A DNA stretch of 46,522 nucleotides from Candidatus Mediterraneibacter quadrami. Lineage in GTDB: Bacteria > Bacillota > Clostridia > Lachnospirales > Lachnospiraceae. How positions within the stretch are numbered: position 1 is the first letter of the stretch; every line of letters starts with the position of its first letter. The notes beneath the pieces are model-generated. The model did not search any database. It was not told the DNA's origin and was given only the letters and a program-made list of their open reading frames with translations. Positions 18,018 through 46,358 of this stretch are shown here, piece by piece. The translations under genes were made by a program, and so were the position numbers. The stretch covers positions 1 through 46,522 of the forward strand of contig DWUU01000033.1 of the NCBI GenBank assembly GCA_019120575.1, given 5' to 3'.

Positions 18018-19562
18018 TTAAAAGACAAGCATCCGCTCTTTTATCATTTCCTCTTTTTCCCTGCCGGAATAAGGGATGCCCTGCGCCGCGTCCGCCGACG
18101 AAGCCAGCAGATGCATGGTGCCCCGGCTGATCCCGGTCGCCCTGGCCGCCGGATTGGATGAAAACTCCACGTACTGGATGTTCCTGAATGGCACGCACAG
18201 ATACTGCCGTCCGAAATAACCGCCGGCTGTTTTCAGGATCCGCCTGTCCGCGCCTGTTCCGGACGTCCGGTATCTGAGGAGCATGCACAGAAGGGTAAGG
18301 ACAGGGACAGCCGCCGCACCGGACCATACAAACCGGATATATTTCTCCGGAACTACAAAGACCGCTGCCGCCGCTGCCGCGAATGTACAGGCCGCGAAGA
18401 TCCCGAATGGGATGCTCCAGGCCGCCCAGACAGACGCCGGCATCCGCTCTGTCCGGATGTCCGGTGTGTCCGCATACTCCGGGAGCAGGAGACGGAGCTG
18501 ACGCCTCAGTTCATTCTCCGTACAATATAAGATCAGGAAAGAATTCTTCTCCTCCTGGTCGTCCCCCATCCCCACATTGATGATCTCCGCCATGTAGCGC
18601 CGGCCGATCCGCGCCACCATGGACTGACGGATCTTCAGCGCCTGGATCTTGTCCACCGGAATGGTGTATTCCACCTTTTTAAAGAACCCGTATTGAATGT
18701 GGATCTTATCCGCCCTGCGCTTTGCGCGGAAATCATAGTAACGGACGAAATCTTTCACCGTATCCCACAGAGAGGACAGGGCGATCAGCGCCGCGACCGC
18801 GATCCCGGCCGCTCCGCCCGCCGCCGTCCCGAGAAGGTCCGCATTGCGCACCGTTTCGACCATGCTGAACACGGTTCCCGCGAGCGCAAGGATGAAAATC
18901 ACGACTGAGACCGCGCTGATCGAAAAAATACCGTGCCGGAGCACGTCCCCGAGGTCCGCGCGCACGTCAAATTCTTCGCCGTCTTCCACGGGACACACCG
19001 CCCCCCTCTGGTCTTCCGCGCATTCCTGCCCTTTGCCGGCTTCATTCTCCGGCTTCCACAGACCGGACAGGCCTCCCGCCGCCTCGATCCGCCGCGCCAA
19101 TTCCTGACGGAACCAGAGCGCATCCGCCTTCTTCAGCACGATCTTCACGTCCGTGCTGTCCGCTGTGGACCGGCTGTTCGTATCCAGTTTCACCTTGCAT
19201 GTCCCGAACAGCATTTCGATCAGGTTCTGCTCCAGATTGATATTGGAAATATTGCGGATGCCGATCGTATTCTTCTGCTTATTGACGCTTCCCTTCTCGA
19301 TCACCACCGCATTGTCTTCGATCGATATGTACGTCTTCCGCCACACCAGCACCTGGGCGATGACCGCCGCTGCCAGAAGAAAGATCACGCCGGGTACGAT
19401 CAGCGCGCCTTTTTCCGTCAGGAACGAAAGGTCCGCTTTCAGGATCTCGTCCAGATGCTCCAGAAGCTGTGTAACGACGAGCACCGCGATGGCTGCCAGC
19501 GCGCCTGCGGTCTGCTCCAGAACGACCGATATATGATTGCGGAATTTCCTGTTCTCATTCAT
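18018..19562 (-). CDS. Membrane protein with bacterial PH (bPH2) domains, YdbT-like
   Basis: A 514-residue protein with several membrane segments (near residues 15-35, 50-75, 200-260 and 360-410) and repeated bPH2-type domains: TYISIEDNAVVIEKGSVNKQ with IRNISNINLEQNLIEMLFG, and later IQYGFFKKVEYTIPVDKIQA and FRNIQYVEFSS. This matches the B. subtilis YdbT layout. The start (MNENRKFRNH) overlaps the stop of the upstream YdbS-like gene by eight bases, so the two are coupled. YdbS/YdbT pairs have been tied to resistance to other bacteria's antimicrobial peptides in Bacillus; a similar envelope role here is inference. Confidence 0.85.
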   Translation of the reverse strand: MNENRKFRNHISVVLEQTAGALAAIAVLVVTQLLEHLDEILKADLSFLTEKGALIVPGVIFLLAAAVIAQVLVWRKTYISIEDNAVVIEKGSVNKQKNTIGIRNISNINLEQNLIEMLFGTCKVKLDTNSRSTADSTDVKIVLKKADALWFRQELARRIEAAGGLSGLWKPENEAGKGQECAEDQRGAVCPVEDGEEFDVRADLGDVLRHGIFSISAVSVVIFILALAGTVFSMVETVRNADLLGTAAGGAAGIAVAALIALSSLWDTVKDFVRYYDFRAKRRADKIHIQYGFFKKVEYTIPVDKIQALKIRQSMVARIGRRYMAEIINVGMGDDQEEKNSFLILYCTENELRRQLRLLLPEYADTPDIRTERMPASVWAAWSIPFGIFAACTFAAAAAAVFVVPEKYIRFVWSGAAAVPVLTLLCMLLRYRTSGTGADRRILKTAGGYFGRQYLCVPFRNIQYVEFSSNPAARATGISRGTMHLLASSADAAQGIPYSGREKEEMIKERMLVF

Positions 19563-20103
19563 AGGCTTTCCCGTCTTCCTGTATATTTTCTCTCTGTTTA
19601 TCAGCGGACCGCTGCTCCAGCACGATCTCATTGATCCGCTTTCTCAGGCTGTCCGCGATCTGCTCCGCCCGCTCTTCCTCCAGGAAGGACAGCGTCACAT
19701 CCCCGCCGCCTGTGGTCACAATCACCTTTGCCACATGAAACGCCTGGTCGATGGGGCCTTTCTTAGTCTGCAGCTTATGGATCCGCTCGATGGGCACGAT
19801 CTGCCGTTTCACAAACAGATATCCTTCTATGACGTCGATGCATTCTTCATTGATACTGTACCGGTACCGGTGATACCGGAAATACGGGCTGACCGTCATA
19901 TCCGCCAGCGTCAGCAGCACCAGGGCCAGCGAGATCCATTTCCCGACGGCTATATCCTTCGGGAACAGCCAGAAATAATTGACCGCTCCGATAACGGCCA
20001 GAACGATCAGTCCTGCCACCAGATCGGCGGTATACATGCAGCGCAGCGCCCGCACCGGAAGTTTCCTGTATTCTTTCGTACTTTGTATGATCTTTTCGTC
20101 CAT
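19555..20103 (-). CDS. Membrane protein with one bPH2 domain, YdbS-like
   Basis: A 182-residue protein with two membrane segments (MYTADLVAGLIVLAVIGAVN and ISLALVLLTLADMTV) followed by a bPH2 domain (YRYSINEECIDVIEGYLFVK, then IVPIERIHKLQTKKGPIDQA). This is the normal small partner of a YdbT-type protein. I use the ATG at 20103 because GGGAGAG lies just upstream. Upstream, GATTGTA and TACAATC form an inverted repeat (20116-20141) over the likely promoter. It follows the enolase-like gene by 46 bp on the same strand. Confidence 0.87.
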   Translation of the reverse strand: MDEKIIQSTKEYRKLPVRALRCMYTADLVAGLIVLAVIGAVNYFWLFPKDIAVGKWISLALVLLTLADMTVSPYFRYHRYRYSINEECIDVIEGYLFVKRQIVPIERIHKLQTKKGPIDQAFHVAKVIVTTGGGDVTLSFLEEERAEQIADSLRKRINEIVLEQRSADKQRENIQEDGKAYE

Positions 20104-20149
20104 AGCGCTCTCCCTGATTGTATTATCTGTATAGTACAATCATAAAGAA

Positions 20150-20827
20150 TCATTTTTCTTCTGTCAACTGCATTTCCAGCTTTTCACGGATCCTGAGAAG
20201 CCGGTTGTACTTTTCCACATACTCCATATGACGCGCCGGTCCGGCATCAATCCGGTCCGCCCCGTACGCGACCGCCAGATCCGTCAGCAGCGTATCCGCT
20301 GTCTCCCCCTCGGAGCAGCAGAAGATCACAGGGATTCTCTCCGCCTGCGCCTTCCGGATCTGTCCGGACAGTTCGCCAAGCGTCGCCGTCTGCCCGACCC
20401 TGACATGAAACCCCGGATCCGGATTCTCTTCTGTCAGGCGGATCTCCGGCACCGGCAGACGGGTGGCACGCACGCCGCCCAGATACCTGTACAGCGGAAG
20501 TTTCAGAGCCGCCGCTGCCGCGGAGGCCGCAGCGGCGGACACACAGAACAGAGTCTCGCTTCTTCGTTCAAACTGAGACAGGATCCCGTCGATCCGCTCC
20601 TGATCAAATATATTCTCCCCGGTCAGCTCCCCGGCGATCACGGTGTTGATATATTCCGCTTCCGCCCGCACCGCCGGATCCTCTCTCCCGTTCCCCGGCA
20701 CAGATACACGGCCGACCACATCCTCCCCGGCCAGCACATCCGTCTCAAGGGCGGACTGCCCGCAGCAGTTAAGGATCACTCTGGAAAAGATATCTCTTAT
20801 CGGTAAAACTGCATTTAACCGCTCCAT
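20150..20827 (-). CDS. Shortened enolase-like protein lacking the catalytic barrel
   Basis: A 225-residue protein clearly derived from enolase. Residues 8-130 follow the enolase N-terminal domain (LPIRDIFSRVIL, VGRVSVPG, ALKLPLYRYLGG, RLPVPEI). Residues 140-220 follow its last barrel strands (VGQTATLGELSGQIRKAQ, GETADTLLTDLAVAYGADRI, EKYNRLLRIREKL). The roughly 180 residues between them in a 430-residue enolase, which hold the Mg ligands and catalytic Glu and Lys, are missing. The active-site loop SGASTG is PGNGRED here, and SHRSGET is FCCSEGET. The frame is open and diverged, so this is an old, retained paralogue rather than a fresh break. The start at 20827 has an AGGAGG site. It cannot be a normal enolase; a structural or regulatory role is possible. 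Confidence 0.85.
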   Translation of the reverse strand: MERLNAVLPIRDIFSRVILNCCGQSALETDVLAGEDVVGRVSVPGNGREDPAVRAEAEYINTVIAGELTGENIFDQERIDGILSQFERRSETLFCVSAAAASAAAAALKLPLYRYLGGVRATRLPVPEIRLTEENPDPGFHVRVGQTATLGELSGQIRKAQAERIPVIFCCSEGETADTLLTDLAVAYGADRIDAGPARHMEYVEKYNRLLRIREKLEMQLTEEK

Positions 20828-20881
20828 TTTTCCCATCCTCCTTCCATATCCTAGTATTTCCCGCGGCACCTTCTTAATGCG

Positions 20882-20910: not shown

Positions 20911-20975
20911 TCGGGTAGATGTACCTGTATGAAATACCGGATCAGATTCAGAACACACTCAGGAGGAACCGGCAT

Positions 20976-21818
20976 ATGAAAGAAAAAGCCAAGTATTTTT
21001 CCATGCTGACGCTCAGCACGCTGCTCATCGCTTTCGGAACGTATTTCTTCAAATTCACCAACAATTTCACCTTCGGCGGCATCACCGGCCTGGCCGTGCT
21101 GGTCGCAAAGACCGGGCTTATTTCCGCCAGTGATTTCAACCTGGTCATGAGCATGATCCTGCTGCTGATCGGCCTCATCGTCCTTGGAAAGAAGTTCGCC
21201 GCAAAAACAGCCTACTGCAGCATCCTTCTCTCCGTGGCGCTGTCCGCCATGGAGCGCATCTGGCCCATGGACCGTCCGCTCACCGGACAGCCGATGCTGG
21301 AACTGTGCTTTGCCATCGCGCTTCCGGCGCTCGGCTCGGCAATCCTGTTTAATATCGGGGCGTCCAGCGGCGGCACGGATATCATTGCCATGATCCTGAA
21401 GAAATATTCCAGTTTCGACATCGGCCGGGCGCTCCTCATCTCGGACGCGCTGATCACGGCCGCCGGCTTCTTCATCTTCGATGTGGAGACCGGGCTTTAT
21501 TCGGTCCTCGGCCTGGCGATCCGTTCATTTATGATCGACAACTTCATAGAGAGCTTTAACCTGTCGAAATATTTCAATGTCGTCTGCGACCATCCGGAAC
21601 CGATCTGCGACTTCATCGTGCACACACTTTCCAGGAGCGCCAGCGTCTGTCACGCCAAAGGCGCCTATTCCGGTAAAGATAAATACATCATCTTCACCGC
21701 CCTGAACCGTGTGCAGGCTGTCCGGCTCCGGAACTTTATCCGGCAGAATGATCCACAGGCATTCATCCTCATCTCCAACACAAGCGAGATCATCGGAAAA
21801 GGATTCCACAGCGTATAA
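20976..21818 (+). CDS. YitT-family membrane protein (DUF161 + DUF2179)
   Basis: A 280-residue protein with five to six membrane segments holding the paired YitT repeats (TFGGITGLAVLVAKTGLIS and NIGASSGGTDIIAMILKKYS) and a cytosolic C-terminal DUF2179 domain (GAYSGKDKYIIFTALNRVQA, then QAFILISNTSEIIGKGF). The family is common in Firmicutes and its transport role is unproven. A perfect AGGAGG at 20961-20966 fixes the start; an ATG 19 codons upstream has no such site. Its stop lies within a stem-loop (21817-21866) that precedes topB on the same strand. Confidence 0.9.
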   Translation: MKEKAKYFSMLTLSTLLIAFGTYFFKFTNNFTFGGITGLAVLVAKTGLISASDFNLVMSMILLLIGLIVLGKKFAAKTAYCSILLSVALSAMERIWPMDRPLTGQPMLELCFAIALPALGSAILFNIGASSGGTDIIAMILKKYSSFDIGRALLISDALITAAGFFIFDVETGLYSVLGLAIRSFMIDNFIESFNLSKYFNVVCDHPEPICDFIVHTLSRSASVCHAKGAYSGKDKYIIFTALNRVQAVRLRNFIRQNDPQAFILISNTSEIIGKGFHSV

Positions 21819-25065: not shown

Positions 25066-25629
25066 TTATTTTCTCAGGAAATTTGCGATCCGTTTATAAA
25101 GAACAAAGGTTACTGCTCCGTTGATCCCGGCTTTAATTACATTAAATCCCACGATAAAAGGCATCAGCGACCACACGGCTGACGCCGGAACGCCCATAAA
25201 AATCGGTGTGATCACCATATTTGCACCCATCATGACAACCGCCATCGCAGCCATGCCGCACAATAACGCCACAACCGCCATTGTTCTCGTCTTTTTATAC
25301 CGGTAGATCGAGCCGGCTACAATGACAAGGACTCCCGTGGCGATCACATGCATCAGGATGCCGTAAAGTCCGCTCGATGCGCTGACGGTCAGCCCCTGGA
25401 CCACCGCAGTAACGACGGTGAGGATCAGCCCCACGACCGGCCCGAAGGCAAATGTACCGATCAGAATCGAGATATCCGCCGGATCATACTCCAGAAACGC
25501 TACCGCCGGAAAGATCGGAAAATGGATCAGGTATACCAGTACAACCGATATAGCGACCATCGCCCCCATCTTTACAAGCTTTGCCGTTCGTCTTCCTGTT
25601 GATACTGCTGCATTTGTTTCTGTACTCAT
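25066..25629 (-). CDS. ribU: ECF transporter substrate-binding subunit for riboflavin
   Basis: A 187-residue membrane S-component with about six membrane segments that binds riboflavin and works with a shared ECF module (EcfA/A'/T) encoded elsewhere. RibU-like features are FPAVAFLEYDPADISILIG and FAFGPVVGLILTVVTAVVQG. The assignment is strongly supported by the FMN riboswitch in its leader (25801-25934). The start at 25629 has an AAGGAGAG site 7 bases upstream; the longer frame would begin within the leader. The gene is monocistronic, ending at a terminator. Confidence 0.92.
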   Translation of the reverse strand: MSTETNAAVSTGRRTAKLVKMGAMVAISVVLVYLIHFPIFPAVAFLEYDPADISILIGTFAFGPVVGLILTVVTAVVQGLTVSASSGLYGILMHVIATGVLVIVAGSIYRYKKTRTMAVVALLCGMAAMAVVMMGANMVITPIFMGVPASAVWSLMPFIVGFNVIKAGINGAVTFVLYKRIANFLRK

Positions 25630-25710
25630 ATTGTGTCTCTCCTTTTTCTTCCGCATCTGCGGGTTAATTTTTTTGAAAAAGGCAGTCTTCCCGGAAATCC
25701 GTCCACCTGA

Positions 25711-25743: not shown

Positions 25744-25800
25744 AAATTACATCGATCACAATGAACCGCCGCCTGCACTCCATAAGGCAGGCTGCTCAAA

Positions 25801-25934
25801 ATCTCTTCTCTCATCCAGACTATACTGTCGGTACCGGAATTCTTTCCTTATGGAAAGTCACCGGTTCGGCCGCTCAGGCGAGCGGTTCGCGGACTGTACC
25901 GCCGGTTGGGACTTGCACCCGACCCCGAAGATCT
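25801..25934 (-). ncRNA. FMN riboswitch (RFN element)
   Basis: Read on the minus strand, all conserved blocks of the RFN element occur in order: GATCTTCGGGGTCGGGTG, CCCAACCGGCGGT, AGTCCGCGA, a variable stem, GAACCGGTGA, AATTCCGGTACCGACAGT, and AGTCTGGATGAGAGAAGA. FMN binding would favour the terminator at 25711-25743 and so shut off ribU when flavin is plentiful. Confidence 0.97.
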
Positions 25935-25995
25935 GTTCCTTTTTACATATGTTACTATAACTCTTTATAACGCCGATTTCAAGGACTTTTTCGGA

Positions 25996-38784: not shown

Positions 38785-39153
38785 TTAATATGCACTTATA
38801 ATATCAGAACAAATATAACTCTGCAAGCATTTTTTGCTTTTAAGCCTTAGAATCGTCATAGAAATCCGCCCCTGCGACAGTAGTACATTTAAATATTTTC
38901 TTACGCTCCTCTTATCTTTGTATCCAAGATAATCCGCTATTTCTAATACTGACTTTGGCTCATGACAAAATTCCAAGATCAAAACTAACTTGTCTTCTTT
39001 ATCTGGTACATTTTCATCCCTGACTGGTACATTTTCATCCTAAACTGGTACATTTTTATCATTAACTGGTACATACGTCTTTGTCTCTAACCGCTCAAAA
39101 GGAATTGTCACCACAATGCTGTTTTCGCTGTCTTGAGTCAGCTTATCCACCAT
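38785..39153 (-). pseudogene. 3' remnant of an AlbA_2-type ATP-binding protein gene
   Basis: On the minus strand a frame reads MVDKLTQDSENSIVVTIPFE, RLETKTYVPVN, four 7-residue repeats of the form NVPVxDE, then KLVLILEFCHEPKSVLEIAD and YLGYKDKRSVRKYLNVLLSQ. The last part is the winged-helix tail seen in AlbA_2/Schlafen-like ATP-binding proteins. A TAG stop (39040-39042) interrupts the repeats, the end after GRISMTI is degenerate, and the whole N-terminal domain is absent. The 5' side abuts a group II intron-like stretch. Confidence 0.65.
39003..39086. repeat. 21-bp tandem repeat, four copies
   Basis: CTGGTACATTTTCATC-type units begin at 39003, 39024, 39045 and 39066, exactly 21 bp apart, so each encodes seven residues (NVPVxDE) on the minus strand within the gene remnant. 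Units differ by a few bases. Confidence 0.85.
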
Positions 39154-39400
39154 GTACGCCTTGTATCAGGTTTCTGTTCGTCAGGCTGCGATTTTGCTAT
39201 TCCTTCTTCTCGCCCACACCTCACGATGTAAACCTTGGGAGTCGCTATGGAGTTCGTCGGCAACTACGCCCCTTGTGGACTTTCACCACAGACTGACGGC
39301 ATGCCCGTCATACTCAAAAACCTCCCAGGGCAACGTCCTGGGAGGCCATGCAGCGCCTTGCGGCATCTGGATCGTATATTGTTGTATCCGATTAACGTTT
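39154..39400 (-). pseudogene. Group II intron-like fragment (domain I region)
   Basis: Read on the minus strand the stretch contains GGTGAAAGTCCAC, GGGGCGTAGTTGCCGACGAA, CCAAGGTTTACATCG and CCTGACGAACAGAAACCTGA followed by TACAAGGC, a series of blocks that I associate with domain I of bacterial group II introns. A hairpin CCTCCCAGG..CCTGGGAGG lies at about 39323-39343. There is no reverse transcriptase frame and no domain V, so only the 5' part would be present. The identification is from memory of the consensus. Confidence 0.45.
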
Positions 39401-39497: not shown

Positions 39498-42400
39498 CTA
39501 TCTTCTCTTTCTGCGCCAGATCCAGCTGCTGGTCACCGCCGCGCCCGATACGAGCATCAGCATGATCCACGGCGCGATATCCGTCGGATCGCCGGTCTGT
39601 GCAACGACTGTATCATCAGCCGCATCCTCCTCCGGCTTCTCCGGTTCTGTCGGCTTCTCCGGCTCTTCCGGTTCTGCCGGCTTTTCCGGCTCCTCCGGTT
39701 TTTCCGGTTCTTCCGGTTTTTCCGGTTCTTCCGGTTCTGTCGGCCCGGTCGCCGGGATCTCCACCGGATCCTCCGCATATCCGCAGACCGTACACTCTTC
39801 ATGCTTCAGACCGGCTTCCGTCTCCGTCGCCTCTTTGTCTGTTACCCAGATGAAGTCATGCGCCTCTCGGACGGTCACCTTCATTTCCGTGACATTGCCG
39901 GCTTTATCCAGTGCCGTGATGATATATTCACCTGCCTTAAGTGTGTAAACGCCGTCCTCTGCCGTCGCATCCTTTCCGTTTATCTGCACTTTATCGATGT
40001 TCCTGTCGTTCACGGTAAATTCTGCTCTGATACAGTATGCCGCACCGTCCGTAATGCCTTCGATCACCGGAGCAGTCAGGTCAAACTCTGCGCCGTCCGT
40101 GGACAGATAGAGCACATTGCCCGCCCGGTCTGTGATCCGTGCATAGTAGATGAACCGCCCGCCGTCTTCCGGCGTCACATTCACGCGATCCGCTTCCGTC
40201 CAGTCGGTCAGGACCTGCACTTCGTCCAGTGACAGCGCCTTGTCAGACACTGCGTATTCCACTTTGGAAATACCGGAAAGGGCGTCTGCGCTTTCAATCG
40301 AAACGGTCTGTGTGTCCTTAAAGAACAGGCCGAACGTGATCGTATTCAGGAACTCACGCCACCGGTTCTCACCGATCCGGATCTCCCCTTCGGGCAGTGT
40401 CCGGTCGATCTTATAGTCTTCCGTCTTCACCAGGGAGATCGCGCCAGTCGTCTCATTCTTCACGTAGAATGCGATCTCTCCGCTGTCCGTCTCATCCGAT
40501 GCGCTGAGAGTGTCTGTCCACGCCCCGTCCACGGTATCCGTAAGGGACAGGCTGAACCCTTCTTTGGCTGTGATCATGAAATCCTCTTTCAGCCAGTCAT
40601 TGCTGTTCACCGTGTAATCCGTGCCCGGCTCCGCCTCATACGTATTGTAGATCTCTGCGGTCACGCCTGAGGGCTGCGTCAGGGTATAGTTGCCTGCACT
40701 GTCTCCGCCAATGACGAACTTCGTAAAGCTGACCGCAATGTCCTCGCCGGCTTTCACGCTGTCAAAGGTAGGCGTGCCGCCTGTGAGTTCAATGTTGTCG
40801 CCGCTCACCACGCCAACGAGTTCCGGTCCTTCCGCATACGCAGCCGTATTCAGGCCGTCGTACTGTTTGTCCTGTATTTTCAGCGATACGGTCAGTTCTT
40901 TCTTCGCGATGGTGAAGTCCTGCGTAGCTGACGCTTCTGTATAGTTGCCTGCCGCATCTTCTTTTACTGTGACGCGCACCGTGTAATCCCCGGCATTCTC
41001 CGGAGCTTCGGTTGTATAAGCTGCATCGTCTGCGCCTTTTGCCTTGTACTCGATGACCACGTCGCCGTCTGTATTGTTCGCGGTATATACCGGCGCGGCC
41101 GGCTGTCCGTCGTAAGTCTTTCCGGTGTCGCCGTCGATCGTCACGGTTCCCGCCACACGCTCTACAGTCAGGGCGACGGTTGTGGCTGCCGGAGCGTCAT
41201 TGTCCGCACCGTCCACGTAGGTCTCGCCCATCGGATTATAGTCCACACGGATCGTGTAATTTCCCGCTGCAAGGGACTGCAGATAAGATGCTTTCAGTGT
41301 GATCGTTCCGTCATCCGTAACCGTGTAGTCCGTGTCCGGGATCGTCTTACTGATCATCTGTCCCTGGGCGTCTTCTGACTCAAGCGTCAGGCTCTTCACC
41401 GTATTGCCGTTCAGCGATACGGCAAAGGATACATCGTCCTTTGAAAGCTTCGTGAAGGAAATATCCTGCGTCTGCTGCGCGGCGTCTGTGTAGACCACGA
41501 TGCCCGCGGAATTGATCACCGTCGTGTTGCCCGCATGGTCTGTCACACGAACGTATACGGACCCTTTCTGGTTCGGTTCGATGCTAAAGCCGTATGTGCC
41601 GTCGCCGCTGGCTGCCAGTTCCTTCCAGTCGCCGCCCACCTGGTCAGGGGCTGTGAATGCATCTGTGGAAAGCATATATTCCACCTTCTCCACACCGCTG
41701 GCATGAGCGGTATCACTTGCCGTAATCTTCACATCAACAGTCTCTTTGAAAAACTTCCCGAATGTTATAGCGTTCAGGAATCCCATCCATTTATTGTCTT
41801 TGACATGAATCGCTGCCGCCGGTGCGGTCCGGTCGATCTTCACGTCAAACGGTTCTCTGGCCGTCCCTTCTGTTCCGGCTTTCGTCACAACCCGGAAGAG
41901 ATATGTCGTCTGGCCTTCATCCGAAACGGTCAGGCAATATGCCCCCTCGGCATCCGGTGTAATCCCAGTCCAGTTCTTCCCGTCATCTGTAGAATACTCA
42001 TATCCGGCGATTCCGCTTTCCGCACTTGACCCTGAAACGGTAAAGGTCACATGATCCTGTTTTGTCCAGGTACCGGAAGTATAGGGATTATCATCCGCTG
42101 TGACAGCGGTAACAACCGGCGCAGCCGGAACGCTTTCTTTCACCGAGATCACCTTTGCATCCTCTGTATTTACAGAAACATAATTGTTGTCGCCCCCATA
42201 CGCCGCATACAGACTGATTTCCCCGGCCAGCAGATCTTCCACATCCACTGTAAACTCCAACGTAATGAATCCGTTTTTAAGTGTTCCTTCTGCCAAAACT
42301 GCCGCTCCTTCTGTACCCGGATTACCATTATAAAGTGTCACCGTACCAGTCGGCGTTCCGACTAAAGGCACATCTTCTTTTTCCGAAGCGACTTTCATTG

Positions 42401-45400
42401 TCACCGAAACCTGATCTTCAAACCCGGCAACCGGAGTGTCGGTCGTCTCACCATTTACAGCAATTGACTCAATCGTTATCTCCGGCGTATAACCGTCTTC
42501 GCAGTACAACCTCAGATATCCGCCCTGTCCGGAAATAGTGAAATCCACTCCTCCGCTCGGACTCTTCTCTACAGGGATCTGCTCTGGGTTACCGCCTGTT
42601 TTGGGGATCATATAAAGAGCTACGACTTTATTTTCCAGTTCTGTAATTTTAGTCGGCGTAAAATGAATCTCAATCTCGCCTCTTGCAGCTGCCACATCCG
42701 CCCCGACTGCATTCAGCGGAACAAGAACAAAGCTTTCCTTCCCTTTCGGATCATATCCGTCTGCTTCTGCCTTCTCATCAAGCAGCTCGTCCAGTTCTTC
42801 ATCTGTTTTCCCGTTATCGATATAATCCGCGTCCGGATAGAACGGCCGCACCCACAGGATGTCATCCTCCGCTTCTTCCGCCAGTACATTCACCGTCTGC
42901 ACAGTAAGCGTCAGTTTTTTATTGCCCGCCGTTACAACCAGAGTTGCCTCTTTATCCGCATCTGCCGATCCGCCTGTCACCGTCAGGATTGTGCCTGTAT
43001 AGATAACGCTGTTTATCATATCATCTGCATCTGCAGTCTCCGCAACCGTGATGATTTCTGCATCCTCAAGCCAGCGGCTCAGATCATAGCTTCGCGTCAC
43101 ATCCGTACTTCCAGCCGGCAGCAGGACTGTTCCAATCATATTTGTCGCAAACGGAAGCGTGATCTGCAGATCATACTGATCCGAATGAAAATGTTGATCC
43201 GACTGCGCGTTGCTTGCTTCGACCCGCATCTTCAGGGTATATGTTGCACCGGGAATCAACCCGCTATAGGTGATCGTATTTCCCTCGCCTAGTTTCTGGG
43301 GACCCGCCTGATAACCATTTCCATCCTGAAGCTGATAGCTGACGCCCTTCTGGCCCTGGAAGGAGATGCTGCCTGCCGCAGCTGTCACATCCGATTCCTG
43401 AAGCGGCGTCATCGAAGGCCGATTTGGAATCTTGATTTCAGTCACAGCATTCCCATTCTGATATTTCGCATAGAGGCTCTTCTCCTCTTCATCGCTGTTC
43501 GCAATATACTTTGAGATATCAATACTCAGGCTGCCGGAATTCTGATTAAGAGCCTCTCCCGTACACTCTTTATTTTCATAAATATAGATCCCGCTCTGAA
43601 ACTTCAGCTTCTCGTTCACATAGTCGAACGTAAATTCATCTACCTGCGGAGCGTCCGATAACGTCGTGAAACTTGCCGCAGGACTGATGCTATTTCCGTC
43701 TTTCTGGATAAAAGTGTAGGTCTGGCCTCTCATCAGACCGGTAAATTCCGGACTGGACTGCCAGTCTTCTGTTCCCACTGGTCCGTTGACGATTTTGTAT
43801 TCATAGCCGACGATTTCTTTCAATGTAATGCTGTCTTCCGTCCTGCCAGCCAGTTCAGGAGCATGCACATTGCCCTCATTGTCTGTAACAGTCACCGCAT
43901 TGCTTGTAACAGCGCCCGTGTAACCGCCGATGCCGGACACAACACAGTACACCACTTTATTCTCGTCTTCTTGCGTCAAACTGTAGCTTGCACCGGTTGC
44001 TCCGGAAATCTCTTCTCCATCCCTGTACCACTGATATGCCACTTTATCATTACTGTCATTTTGTACGGAAGCCGGCGCAAGACCAGTCAGACCGGCTTTC
44101 AGGGCTGTTCCGACACCTGCAGAACCGGTAACCGCTTCCCCATTATTATCCACAAGCCGGACCGTTCCATAAATCTCCAGCAGTGGGCTGGTAAAGAAAT
44201 ACTGCCATCCGGTTGATCCAATATTAAATTTATCCGAACTGCTTGTTACATCTGTAAGAACTGAATTGCCGAACTTCATGTCTGCACCGGTCTGCGCAGA
44301 CAAATTTGTCGCCGCGACCGACGCATAACCGTACCCCAGTTCACCTATGGACTCGTCTCCAACCGTAACAGCTCCGGGACTTTCTGCTTTGTACAGCGTC
44401 TGACTGCTGCCAGTCTGTGTTACCATGGTGTTCTGTACAAGGTTCGTATTCTCACAGGTGACCGTCTTCCCGTAGATCGCAAGCACACCGGATTTGGCGC
44501 TGATCTCAGGTTTCCCCTCTACCGTAATATTCACATTATCGGTAAGCTGCATTTCTTCAGCAAACGCAGCCTGCAAATCTTCGCCTGTGATCCGCGGCGC
44601 CATGCTTCTGGCGGCGCGCAGGGAATGAAGCCCGGCATCCTCATCACTAACCGACGTTCCCCCTCCCCAGTTTCCGATGCCGCTTCCGATCACCAGCTCG
44701 ATCTTTCCGTCATCCTTAATCGTTGTCGTACCCCAGCGTCCGCCTCCGATGGCAGCCGACTGAATGCTGGTTGCTGTCACATCACTGTCGCCGGAAATTG
44801 TGACAGAAAGGTCCTCAAGGTTCTCTGGTTTCTCTTTTTCCTTTTCAAGATACGGCATACCGATGGCGGCGCCCTTGTCACTGGCTGCTTCTATATAACT
44901 GTCACAAATCGTTATCTTTGATCCGGAAATATTCTCATCAACCGCCTCCTCATTTGGCCCAATCGCAGGAGCATCCTCCGCTTTTGCGTAAACTTTGGAC
45001 TTGGTAATATCCAGCGTCTCAAAGCATCCTCCGATGCCGCCATAATCTCTCATTGTCTCAATGCCGGAGATTACCGAGTCGTCTATTGTGATTGTTTCAG
45101 CATTCCCCAGCGCAGGAGTACAAGAATAATGGGAATCGAACTTAGGGTGAAATTCTATGGTTGAATCATCTATATCTATCAAAGAACCGTCAAAAGAGTT
45201 CTCATCAAACTCATCCGCCGGGCTTATCCTGCCCACATTATACAGGGCAGATCCGCTGATCCGGGTCGATCCGGCCTGAATACGACGATTCATATTAGAA
45301 GTTTCTTTAAAAGTGATTGTCGAATCTTCTATTGAAAGATCAGACGCTGACAAGTTCTCTTCCACTTCATATGTTCCGCCTGTTATATTGATGTGACATC

Positions 45401-46358
45401 CTGAAGCATTCACATATCTGAATTTTAACCCGGATGAATCATCCTTCGCGCTTACATTAAGCACATGCTCGTCCGCCTTATTACTCAGATCGATCTGATA
45501 GATTTCACAACTTCCCTGATACTGGAGCGTTGACGTACCACTGCCATGAAGCTGTACATTTCCACCCTTCGTTCCTGTCAAACCTGTTGAAAAATTGTCC
45601 AGGGTAAGATCGACCGAAGGATACTCCGGATACTTCTGAATGATAAAATCAATCGGAAAACTTTTTCCCGGCGCACCTTTTATCGTAATATCCGTGCCTG
45701 GTTCCCTGGGATAAATCTGAACATCCACAGACGCTTTCGGATTCTCAACCGCCTCTGAAAAATCAAGGATCAGGCTCTCCCCTGCATCAACTGATATACT
45801 ATAAATCTTAAAGTCGTCCGGAAAAGTATGAAACTTCCTGGTAATCACATTTCCCTCGACGGTTTCCGTATACTCCTCGTCAGCCAGCGGTTCAACCGCA
45901 TCTGCAAACCGTACAGTTACAGCCGGGTTTTCAGCAGTCTCATACCCTTCCTGAATCTCTGCTGTAAAGGTATATTCTCCCTCCTGCGGCCATGCCCCCT
46001 GCCCGTCCGCAACATACTCCGGACAGTTCCAGGCAGAAACTTCAACCGGGACTTCTTCCGCTCCTTCTGTTTTGGCAGTCAGGCTTCCAGGAAGCATGGA
46101 TGCCAACTCATCCAGTGGGATGTTTCCCTGCGGAACATCTGCAGCATATTTCCCGTCTTCCTCATAAACGGACAGGCCGTCCGGATTGTCCGCGAACTGC
46201 CAGTCAACAATCTTTATTGCCTGCGTCTCCACAGTATTTTCCTGATATCCGGTCTGTTCACCCGTTTCCTCCCCCTCGGCAAACGCCGTCTGCGGCGCCA
46301 CTGTAACCAGCATCGCCGAACACAGGATCATGCTCAGGATCTTTCTTGTCTTTTTCAT
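39498..46358 (-). CDS. Giant sortase-anchored surface protein (2286 aa)
   Basis: Secreted multidomain wall protein. Order: signal peptide ending near PQTAFA (residue 27); a beta-helix-like region to about residue 700 with recurring IGG/AIG turns (ITIDDSVISGIET, AAIGGGRWGTTTI); Ig/fibronectin-like modules; two copies of a 'W..FLN.ITFG.FFK' module near residues 1520 and 2003; an MBG/filamin-like domain (KTYDGQPAAPVYTA, about 1750); a YDG domain (IQDKQYDGLNTAAYA, about 1820); a Cys-containing module (EECTVCGYAEDPVEIPATG); a Pro/Glu/Lys wall-spanning repeat; and a C-terminal QTGD motif, membrane segment and RRKRR tail. QTGD replaces classic LPxTG. It probably serves adhesion or glycan binding at the cell surface. 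It stands alone between the remnants and a right-hand terminator. Confidence 0.9.
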   Translation of the reverse strand: MKKTRKILSMILCSAMLVTVAPQTAFAEGEETGEQTGYQENTVETQAIKIVDWQFADNPDGLSVYEEDGKYAADVPQGNIPLDELASMLPGSLTAKTEGAEEVPVEVSAWNCPEYVADGQGAWPQEGEYTFTAEIQEGYETAENPAVTVRFADAVEPLADEEYTETVEGNVITRKFHTFPDDFKIYSISVDAGESLILDFSEAVENPKASVDVQIYPREPGTDITIKGAPGKSFPIDFIIQKYPEYPSVDLTLDNFSTGLTGTKGGNVQLHGSGTSTLQYQGSCEIYQIDLSNKADEHVLNVSAKDDSSGLKFRYVNASGCHINITGGTYEVEENLSASDLSIEDSTITFKETSNMNRRIQAGSTRISGSALYNVGRISPADEFDENSFDGSLIDIDDSTIEFHPKFDSHYSCTPALGNAETITIDDSVISGIETMRDYGGIGGCFETLDITKSKVYAKAEDAPAIGPNEEAVDENISGSKITICDSYIEAASDKGAAIGMPYLEKEKEKPENLEDLSVTISGDSDVTATSIQSAAIGGGRWGTTTIKDDGKIELVIGSGIGNWGGGTSVSDEDAGLHSLRAARSMAPRITGEDLQAAFAEEMQLTDNVNITVEGKPEISAKSGVLAIYGKTVTCENTNLVQNTMVTQTGSSQTLYKAESPGAVTVGDESIGELGYGYASVAATNLSAQTGADMKFGNSVLTDVTSSSDKFNIGSTGWQYFFTSPLLEIYGTVRLVDNNGEAVTGSAGVGTALKAGLTGLAPASVQNDSNDKVAYQWYRDGEEISGATGASYSLTQEDENKVVYCVVSGIGGYTGAVTSNAVTVTDNEGNVHAPELAGRTEDSITLKEIVGYEYKIVNGPVGTEDWQSSPEFTGLMRGQTYTFIQKDGNSISPAASFTTLSDAPQVDEFTFDYVNEKLKFQSGIYIYENKECTGEALNQNSGSLSIDISKYIANSDEEEKSLYAKYQNGNAVTEIKIPNRPSMTPLQESDVTAAAGSISFQGQKGVSYQLQDGNGYQAGPQKLGEGNTITYSGLIPGATYTLKMRVEASNAQSDQHFHSDQYDLQITLPFATNMIGTVLLPAGSTDVTRSYDLSRWLEDAEIITVAETADADDMINSVIYTGTILTVTGGSADADKEATLVVTAGNKKLTLTVQTVNVLAEEAEDDILWVRPFYPDADYIDNGKTDEELDELLDEKAEADGYDPKGKESFVLVPLNAVGADVAAARGEIEIHFTPTKITELENKVVALYMIPKTGGNPEQIPVEKSPSGGVDFTISGQGGYLRLYCEDGYTPEITIESIAVNGETTDTPVAGFEDQVSVTMKVASEKEDVPLVGTPTGTVTLYNGNPGTEGAAVLAEGTLKNGFITLEFTVDVEDLLAGEISLYAAYGGDNNYVSVNTEDAKVISVKESVPAAPVVTAVTADDNPYTSGTWTKQDHVTFTVSGSSAESGIAGYEYSTDDGKNWTGITPDAEGAYCLTVSDEGQTTYLFRVVTKAGTEGTAREPFDVKIDRTAPAAAIHVKDNKWMGFLNAITFGKFFKETVDVKITASDTAHASGVEKVEYMLSTDAFTAPDQVGGDWKELAASGDGTYGFSIEPNQKGSVYVRVTDHAGNTTVINSAGIVVYTDAAQQTQDISFTKLSKDDVSFAVSLNGNTVKSLTLESEDAQGQMISKTIPDTDYTVTDDGTITLKASYLQSLAAGNYTIRVDYNPMGETYVDGADNDAPAATTVALTVERVAGTVTIDGDTGKTYDGQPAAPVYTANNTDGDVVIEYKAKGADDAAYTTEAPENAGDYTVRVTVKEDAAGNYTEASATQDFTIAKKELTVSLKIQDKQYDGLNTAAYAEGPELVGVVSGDNIELTGGTPTFDSVKAGEDIAVSFTKFVIGGDSAGNYTLTQPSGVTAEIYNTYEAEPGTDYTVNSNDWLKEDFMITAKEGFSLSLTDTVDGAWTDTLSASDETDSGEIAFYVKNETTGAISLVKTEDYKIDRTLPEGEIRIGENRWREFLNTITFGLFFKDTQTVSIESADALSGISKVEYAVSDKALSLDEVQVLTDWTEADRVNVTPEDGGRFIYYARITDRAGNVLYLSTDGAEFDLTAPVIEGITDGAAYCIRAEFTVNDRNIDKVQINGKDATAEDGVYTLKAGEYIITALDKAGNVTEMKVTVREAHDFIWVTDKEATETEAGLKHEECTVCGYAEDPVEIPATGPTEPEEPEKPEEPEKPEEPEKPAEPEEPEKPTEPEKPEEDAADDTVVAQTGDPTDIAPWIMLMLVSGAAVTSSWIWRRKRR
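39631..39750. repeat. Pro/Glu-coding short repeats in the wall-spanning region
   Basis: Tandem TCCGGTTCTTCCGGTTTT-like units encode EPEKPEEPEKP on the minus strand. Such repeats change length easily and can alter how far the protein projects from the wall. Confidence 0.8.

Follow-up and report, generated by a model that had tools for sequence, protein, structure and literature searches.

The window analysed here is the whole stretch of 46,522 nucleotides. Close to its middle, on the reverse strand, lies a short gene for an enolase paralogue, hereafter mini eno2, in the company of two genes for bacterial PH domain proteins and of a divergent gene for a YitT-family membrane protein. The features of this neighbourhood are as follows.

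18018–19631, (-) strand: PH2, with two bPH_2 stretches (Pfam).
19555–20139, (-) strand: PH1, a bacterial PH domain protein (bPH_2; Pfam), its ATG probably at 20103.
20139–20167, (-) strand: promoter-like sequence TTGACA-17-TATGAT (11/12), across the 3′ end of mini eno2 and before PH1 (consensus scan only).
20150–20827, (-) strand: mini eno2, a catalytically dead, barrel-deleted enolase paralogue (open reading frame, Pfam, alignment, active-site census, omega).
20177–20410, (-) strand: kept C-terminal part, residues 140–217, equivalent to about 338–415 of eno1 (Pfam, phmmer, alignment).
20411–20446, (-) strand: junction, residues 128–139, in place of about 178 barrel residues (alignment).
20447–20809, (-) strand: kept N-terminal domain, residues 7–127, a three-strand sheet plus helices, with PLYRYLGG (Pfam, alignment, AlphaFold2).
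20837–20843, (-) strand: Shine-Dalgarno-like AAGGAGG, upstream of the ATG at 20827 (sequence).
20919–21818, (+) strand: gene for a YitT-family membrane protein, divergent, the usual upstream neighbour of eno2 (Pfam).

Several other features of the window are noted for completeness. Among the PADLOC models, PH1 has a borderline hit to ThsA (E 0.00092, 16.6 bits) that is probably due to chance. An FMN riboswitch (25799–25936, (-) strand) is followed by the gene for an ECF transporter substrate-specific component (25066–25656, (-) strand), presumably an ordinary arrangement for riboflavin uptake. A stretch at 39068–39230 on the (-) strand matches the group II intron D1–D4 family (49.2 bits), and a 2286-aa frame (39498–46358, (-) strand) with one YDG domain match perhaps encodes a large surface protein, its location being a guess.

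Mini eno2 opens with an ATG and encodes 225 amino acids, in which two separate pieces of enolase can be recognized. Enolase_N (PF03952) matches residues 53–116 (43.8 bits; cut-off 35), while Enolase_C matches residues 142–218, corresponding to profile positions 206–282 of 296 (36.9 bits; cut-off 21.5), so that the C-terminal barrel is incomplete. A phmmer search of the PDB with the mini protein likewise returned enolases, the passing stretches in the best of them being residues 50–131 and 139–220. The same genome carries a separate full-length enolase, eno1 (G000:C50:71481), and alignment to its product places central gaps at eno1 positions 154–281, 285–289 and 292–336, about 178 residues in all, with junction boundaries that are alignment-defined and hold to within a few residues; smaller gaps fall at 43–59 and 101–107, and the tail (424–431) is also missing. 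We compared the two proteins at 12 active-site residues, chosen from what we take to be the essentials of enolase biochemistry and located by motif in eno1. All 12 are present in eno1 and none in the mini protein, where six are deleted and six substituted (S41, K341, H369, R370, S371 and K392 of eno1 being replaced by G, R, C, S, E and D respectively). A preliminary description of this DNA had portrayed the gene as an enolase N-terminal domain joined to the last elements of the barrel, in an open frame with its own ribosome binding site, and had called for confirmation of a separate full-length eno; all of this is borne out. Its statement that the central gap takes with it every catalytic and metal-binding residue is right for six of the 12 only, since the other six lie in the kept parts and have been substituted. 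The gene has three orthologues of near-equal length (222 aa each, 90–93% identity).

To place mini eno2 among its relatives, we turn to the genus as a whole, with genomes denoted by G and loci by L. A second enolase gene, eno2, was found in 55 of the 58 Mediterraneibacter genomes, at 56 loci (two in G014) and usually at the same genomic place. Of the 54 loci with over 1.2 kb of sequence upstream of eno2, 49 have the YitT gene there, on the opposite strand. The genus search did not find eno2 in G072, G080 or G021, nor was a YitT match at E 1e-60 found in these three; G072 and G080 contain a single Enolase_C match each. Its absence from three of 58 genomes indicates that eno2 is dispensable. A second enolase-like gene does occur in G021 (L157:1210–2412, on G021:C3), where it encodes a full-length but different and distant paralogue, not counted here as eno2, near frames that by eye resemble glycerate kinase and glutamate dehydrogenase. 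In G034, which is 98% complete, the only enolase match is an intact eno2; thus eno2 was probably a working enolase ancestrally, with ordinary catalytic activity in the common ancestor of the genus.

The active-site census divides the 56 loci into 24 with all 12 residues, one with 11 and 31 with nine or fewer. Every one of the 31 degenerate genes is an open frame with its stop within the contig (11,527 codons in total); among the intact genes, that of G011 is cut by the contig end. A Shine-Dalgarno-like motif precedes 55 of the 56 genes, a count biased upward by a choice of starts that favoured those with such a motif. Of the 31 genomes with a degenerate eno2, 30 have another, separate match to enolase, whose open frame is 432–468 aa long, the exception being G019 (85% complete); all 19 of the eno1 genes that were extracted, 13 of them from these 30 genomes, have the full set of 12 residues. 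Long inactive and shortened forms of eno2 coexist within this one genus, and some of the long ones retain part of the active site (e.g. G017 with 9/12, G029 with 6/12). Judged by its sequence, mini eno2 is the far end of this genus-wide series, its most eroded form.

The degeneration of eno2 appears to have happened repeatedly. In the eno2 protein tree the degenerate genes occupy several positions: G068 adjoins the intact G011 and G018, G029 lies beside intact relatives, and G030, G062 and G077 fall within an intact group (supports 99 and 100), while the remaining degenerate genes form one large clade with a support of 56, which may reflect long-branch attraction. A tree built from neighbouring genes (55 loci, one to three markers per locus, with G028 left out as having none of the three) contains 11 maximal degenerate clades and five maximal short clades, several of its nodes being weak and recombination of genes being possible. 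For these last reasons we give the number of losses of activity as a range, which would be at least four by the gene tree and up to 11 by the neighbour-gene tree. On the latter tree, segments of the barrel have been lost in five lineages, all of which retain the N-terminal domain and the final quarter of the barrel. The short forms are those of the mini clade (222–225 aa), G070 (279 aa), G008 (232 aa), G068 (288 aa), G013 (326 aa), G005 (329 aa) and G026 (361 aa). In all eight shortened genes examined the N-terminal domain is kept, and the last gap in the barrel ends, by alignment, at eno1 position 326–339.

Selection on these genes was assessed with codon models. For the four genes of the mini clade, maximum likelihood gave a dN/dS (omega) of 0.194 and rejected omega = 1 (2dlnL 44.9, the likelihood at omega = 1 being taken with kappa from a grid of five values on a fixed tree); taken separately, the N part gave 0.127 (2dlnL 33.6) and the C part 0.203 (2dlnL 17.3). 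Five groups of longer degenerate eno2 genes yielded values of 0.14–0.32, with omega = 1 strongly rejected, as against 0.05 and 0.11 in two groups of intact genes. Pairwise NG86 ratios, which ignore transition bias, run from 0.12 to 0.40 in 33 pairs with degenerate genes (in one of these, G030 with G078, one partner is the 11/12 gene), from 0 to 0.13 in 11 intact pairs and from 0.03 to 0.12 in seven eno1 pairs. Constraint on degenerate eno2 is relaxed relative to intact eno2, but it is real. As to the open frames themselves, a neutral, substitution-only simulation starting from the 426-codon gene of G078 accumulated a mean of 7.2 stops at 0.25 changes per site, whereas at 0.1–0.04 changes per site, as in the shallow mini clade, the simulated probability of no stop at all is 0.22–0.55. 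An open frame is thus unsurprising at the depth of the mini clade, where it is the omega test that carries the argument.

We also considered whether a split in constraint, with the ends kept and the middle of the barrel free, might be a mark of degeneration, and set the idea aside. The split is absent from groups c002 (omega 0.26 in the middle, 0.24 at the ends), c004 (0.16, 0.14) and c062 (0.34, 0.30); a middle less constrained than the ends was seen in c027 and c020, and equally in int007 and int010, which are intact groups. The inactive barrel is thus under about the same constraint as the ends in three of the five degenerate groups, and constraint is not confined to assembly surfaces.

In the AlphaFold2 model of the mini protein, both kept parts pack as they do in enolase when the two are superimposed. 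The best of the five models (78, 60, 56, 41 and 38) is alone good, and AlphaFold2 already knows the enolase fold; a long degenerate form, L036, was predicted with less confidence than the mini protein (pLDDT 65.4, pTM 0.59). On the strength of this model, we consider it likely that the mini protein is folded in the enolase arrangement. Its gene branches inside eno2 in the gene tree, so that ancestry as well as modelled fold are held in common with the active enzyme; the frame is undisrupted and omega is far from 1, and loss of the catalytic residues is combined with selection on the protein. Mini eno2 is thus very probably a pseudoenzyme under selection. The preliminary description had argued for a retained new role rather than decay, and three of its expectations were realized: there are orthologues of the same length, dN/dS lies well below 1 and a folded chain is predicted, though by one good model of five. 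What did not survive is the special tie that it drew between the short enolase and the envelope PH proteins. PH1 adjoins eno2 in 15 of 21 intact and in 21 of 28 degenerate loci (those with more than 3 kb of downstream sequence), and degenerate eno2 genes without PH genes in the fetched stretches occur in G002, G009, G026, G070 and others; PH neighbours are not obligatory.

Which surfaces the degenerate proteins have kept may bear on what they do. An ion pair between E20 and R414 spans the enolase dimer, according to one report (PMC9452966), and by our own mapping the equivalents are E24 and R410 of eno1; in the mini protein the corresponding residues are E28 and R212. The two positions are kept in 1.00 and 0.73, respectively, of 26 degenerate representatives (the five near-identical rows of G019, G025, G031, G076 and G077 being left out of the counts), in which the mean is 0.26 for active-site residues and 0.63 for the remaining conserved positions of the kept ends. 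Contacts in the octamer of Staphylococcus aureus enolase include F354, D355 and N389, as given in the accessible portion of its description (PMC4667285). Among the nine equivalents of these octamer contacts whose conservation in intact eno2 reaches 90% or more, 91% are kept in the degenerate genes, an excess that varies with the cut-off applied (p 0.0025 at 0.9, 0.027 at 0.85, 0.11 with none) and that is gone once YLGG is left out; the equivalents of F354, D355 and N389 themselves are mostly lost. We therefore rejected kept octamer contacts as an explanation, strong at the 0.9 cut-off but sensitive both to the choice of cut-off and to the removal of YLGG, and regard a kept assembly surface in degenerate eno2 as only suggestive.

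We propose the following role for the mini protein. In its lineage, as in several others, eno2 would have lost active-site residues first and the middle of the barrel afterwards, an order inferred from the long degenerate relatives, while by comparison among them the reading frame, the N-terminal domain and the last barrel elements appear to have been kept by purifying selection. Since catalysis is gone, binding of some kind is the most likely activity of the product, which would then work as a non-catalytic binding protein. It may have kept enough of the surface by which enolase assembles to join full-length Eno1, or to occupy the binding site of an Eno1 partner, and the mini protein could in this way be a regulatory or scaffold subunit. 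An eroded eno2 retained by selection as a non-catalytic binding or assembly subunit is our best explanation of the whole, and one that we hold to be reasonably probable; we would say much the same of the narrower claim that the product acts by binding. That its partner is Eno1 itself is a tentative suggestion, less probable than not in our estimate. Binding is our best inference and Eno1 the most natural partner, yet the evidence from sequence does not favour Eno1 specifically.

The non-catalytic binder might instead have a partner other than Eno1, such as an RNA-decay enzyme, another enzyme, or a membrane or PH protein, and we count this, too, as a serious possibility that falls short of being probable. 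Enolase has a groove near residues 136 and 350–365 through which it binds partners, as it does RibD in Francisella (PMC12742849), and the parts kept in the mini protein include this region, with the L350 equivalent as well as YLGG well kept; the losses at F354 and D355, however, lie in the same region, and a PH partner in particular is weakened by the PH-less loci. Far less probable is that eno2, redundant beside eno1, is simply a decaying pseudogene drifting to loss, its open frames a matter of time. Very fast protein evolution, the loss of all examined active-site residues, internal deletions, an omega above that of intact eno2 and the three genomes that lack the gene would all fit decay, but the low omega of the mini clade and of the five degenerate groups, the openness of all 31 degenerate frames and the downstream boundary common to barrel deletions of separate lineages argue against it.

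We give still less credence to the idea that what preserves the frame is a need for its DNA or its translation and not for the protein, whether through coupling to PH1–PH2 or as regulatory sequence. PH1 follows closely behind eno2 in the mini clade and may have its own promoter at 20139–20167 (-), in the promoter-like site that overlaps the 3′ end of mini eno2; against this stand the low omega of both halves of the gene and the persistence of degenerate eno2 where neither PH1 nor PH2 lies downstream in the fetched stretch. A changed enzyme, with a remodelled pocket for another ligand or reaction, is just as improbable for the mini protein: long degenerate forms that keep parts of the site, with constrained barrels, might invite it, but with most of the barrel gone the enolase pocket cannot remain. 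Least credible of all is that the mini protein serves as a decoy for a phage protein recruiting the enolase of its host, an idea suggested by the title of structure 9no4 (Csm/AcrIIIA2/enolase). 9no4 is among the structural matches, as enolases generally are, and conflict typically brings fast and repeated change. Of the 58 genomes of the genus, however, only two, G017 and G073, have a Csm1 match that exceeds the family cut-off (some match at E 0.001 being found in 41 of 58, nearly all short and of 18–35 bits), a rarity that speaks against a type III-A version of the decoy, and at E 0.001 the mini protein matches none of the PADLOC models.

If selection for a non-catalytic subunit is the right reading, the 31 of 56 eno2 loci that have degenerate active sites and yet stay open, from full length down to half size, amount to a natural dissection of the parts of enolase that such a role needs. 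Work on what enolase does outside glycolysis is difficult, since glycolysis itself requires the enzyme; in this case eno1 covers glycolysis, and eno2 should therefore be deletable. The genus also offers a dense series from enzyme to pseudoenzyme, traversed several times. In a bolder generalization, which we think rather unlikely, a duplicated glycolytic enzyme would have been cut back repeatedly in the direction of its assembly surfaces while under purifying selection, and a new class of small enolase subunits would have arisen that are not catalytic and that modulate Eno1 or the partners of Eno1.

Beyond the genus, no clear short form of enolase was seen among the matches listed for 397 genomes of the family, and the 28 best-scoring loci of other genera all have 12/12 active-site residues, degenerate ones being expected to rank lower. 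One genome of another genus of the family, G401, does encode a 400-aa enolase paralogue with 1/12 (L155), and degenerate enolases are thus not confined to Mediterraneibacter. Three candidate short forms were discarded: in G355 a frame change divides the gene, and the remainder of an ordinary enolase follows it, and those of G313 and G144 are eno2-like genes interrupted by an insert. In these last two (L152 in G313, L154 in G144), which represent two other genera, the insert sits directly after the NGGA codons and before the catalytic His; the inserts begin almost alike, the frame continues as CVIIMTQGRTPYN.RALAI, and no Rfam family reached its gathering score in the short stretches fetched.

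How, then, does mini eno2 compare with known systems? It departs from ordinary enolase, as defined by the equivalog TIGR01060 and by PF03952 plus PF00113, in the missing barrel residues (about 178), in an active site with 0/12 residues and in a score of 93.6 bits against a cut-off of 300. It also matches NCBIfam PRK08350, which we take to be a model of an archaeal enolase paralogue, at 59.6 bits, below the cut-off of 624. The second enolases of Thermococci and Methanococci evolve fast and, in the portion of the study available (PMC4390880), are proposed to retain nothing but an ancillary role outside glycolysis, which is left to the other copy. They resemble eno2 in being a fast-evolving second copy beside a glycolytic one, but differ, by the same portion of that study, in being ancient, in occupying few branches and in lying in a ribosomal gene neighbourhood; internal deletions of the barrel are not described in that portion (PMC4390880). 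Trypanosomatid prozymes, for example the AdoMetDC prozyme and a dead deoxyhypusine synthase (PMC5201418, PMC3663545), share with mini eno2 the pairing of a catalytically dead paralogue with an active enzyme, here the presumably active eno1 with its 12/12 residues in the same genome. They differ in that activation of the partner is reported for them, and the mini protein is shortened to half size. The YLGG turn, L350 and the dimer-strand regions that figure in the available descriptions of the S. aureus octamer (PMC4667285) and of the RibD–enolase complex (PMC12742849) lie within the kept parts of the mini protein, and several of the contact residues named there are lost in degenerate eno2. Among the open-licence full texts listed as matches, we recognized none that describes such barrel-deleted enolases. 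Mini eno2 thus looks like a pseudoenzyme, which is a known kind of protein; its precedent looks to be the fast archaeal enolase paralogues, and the repeated, convergent deletion of the barrel looks new.
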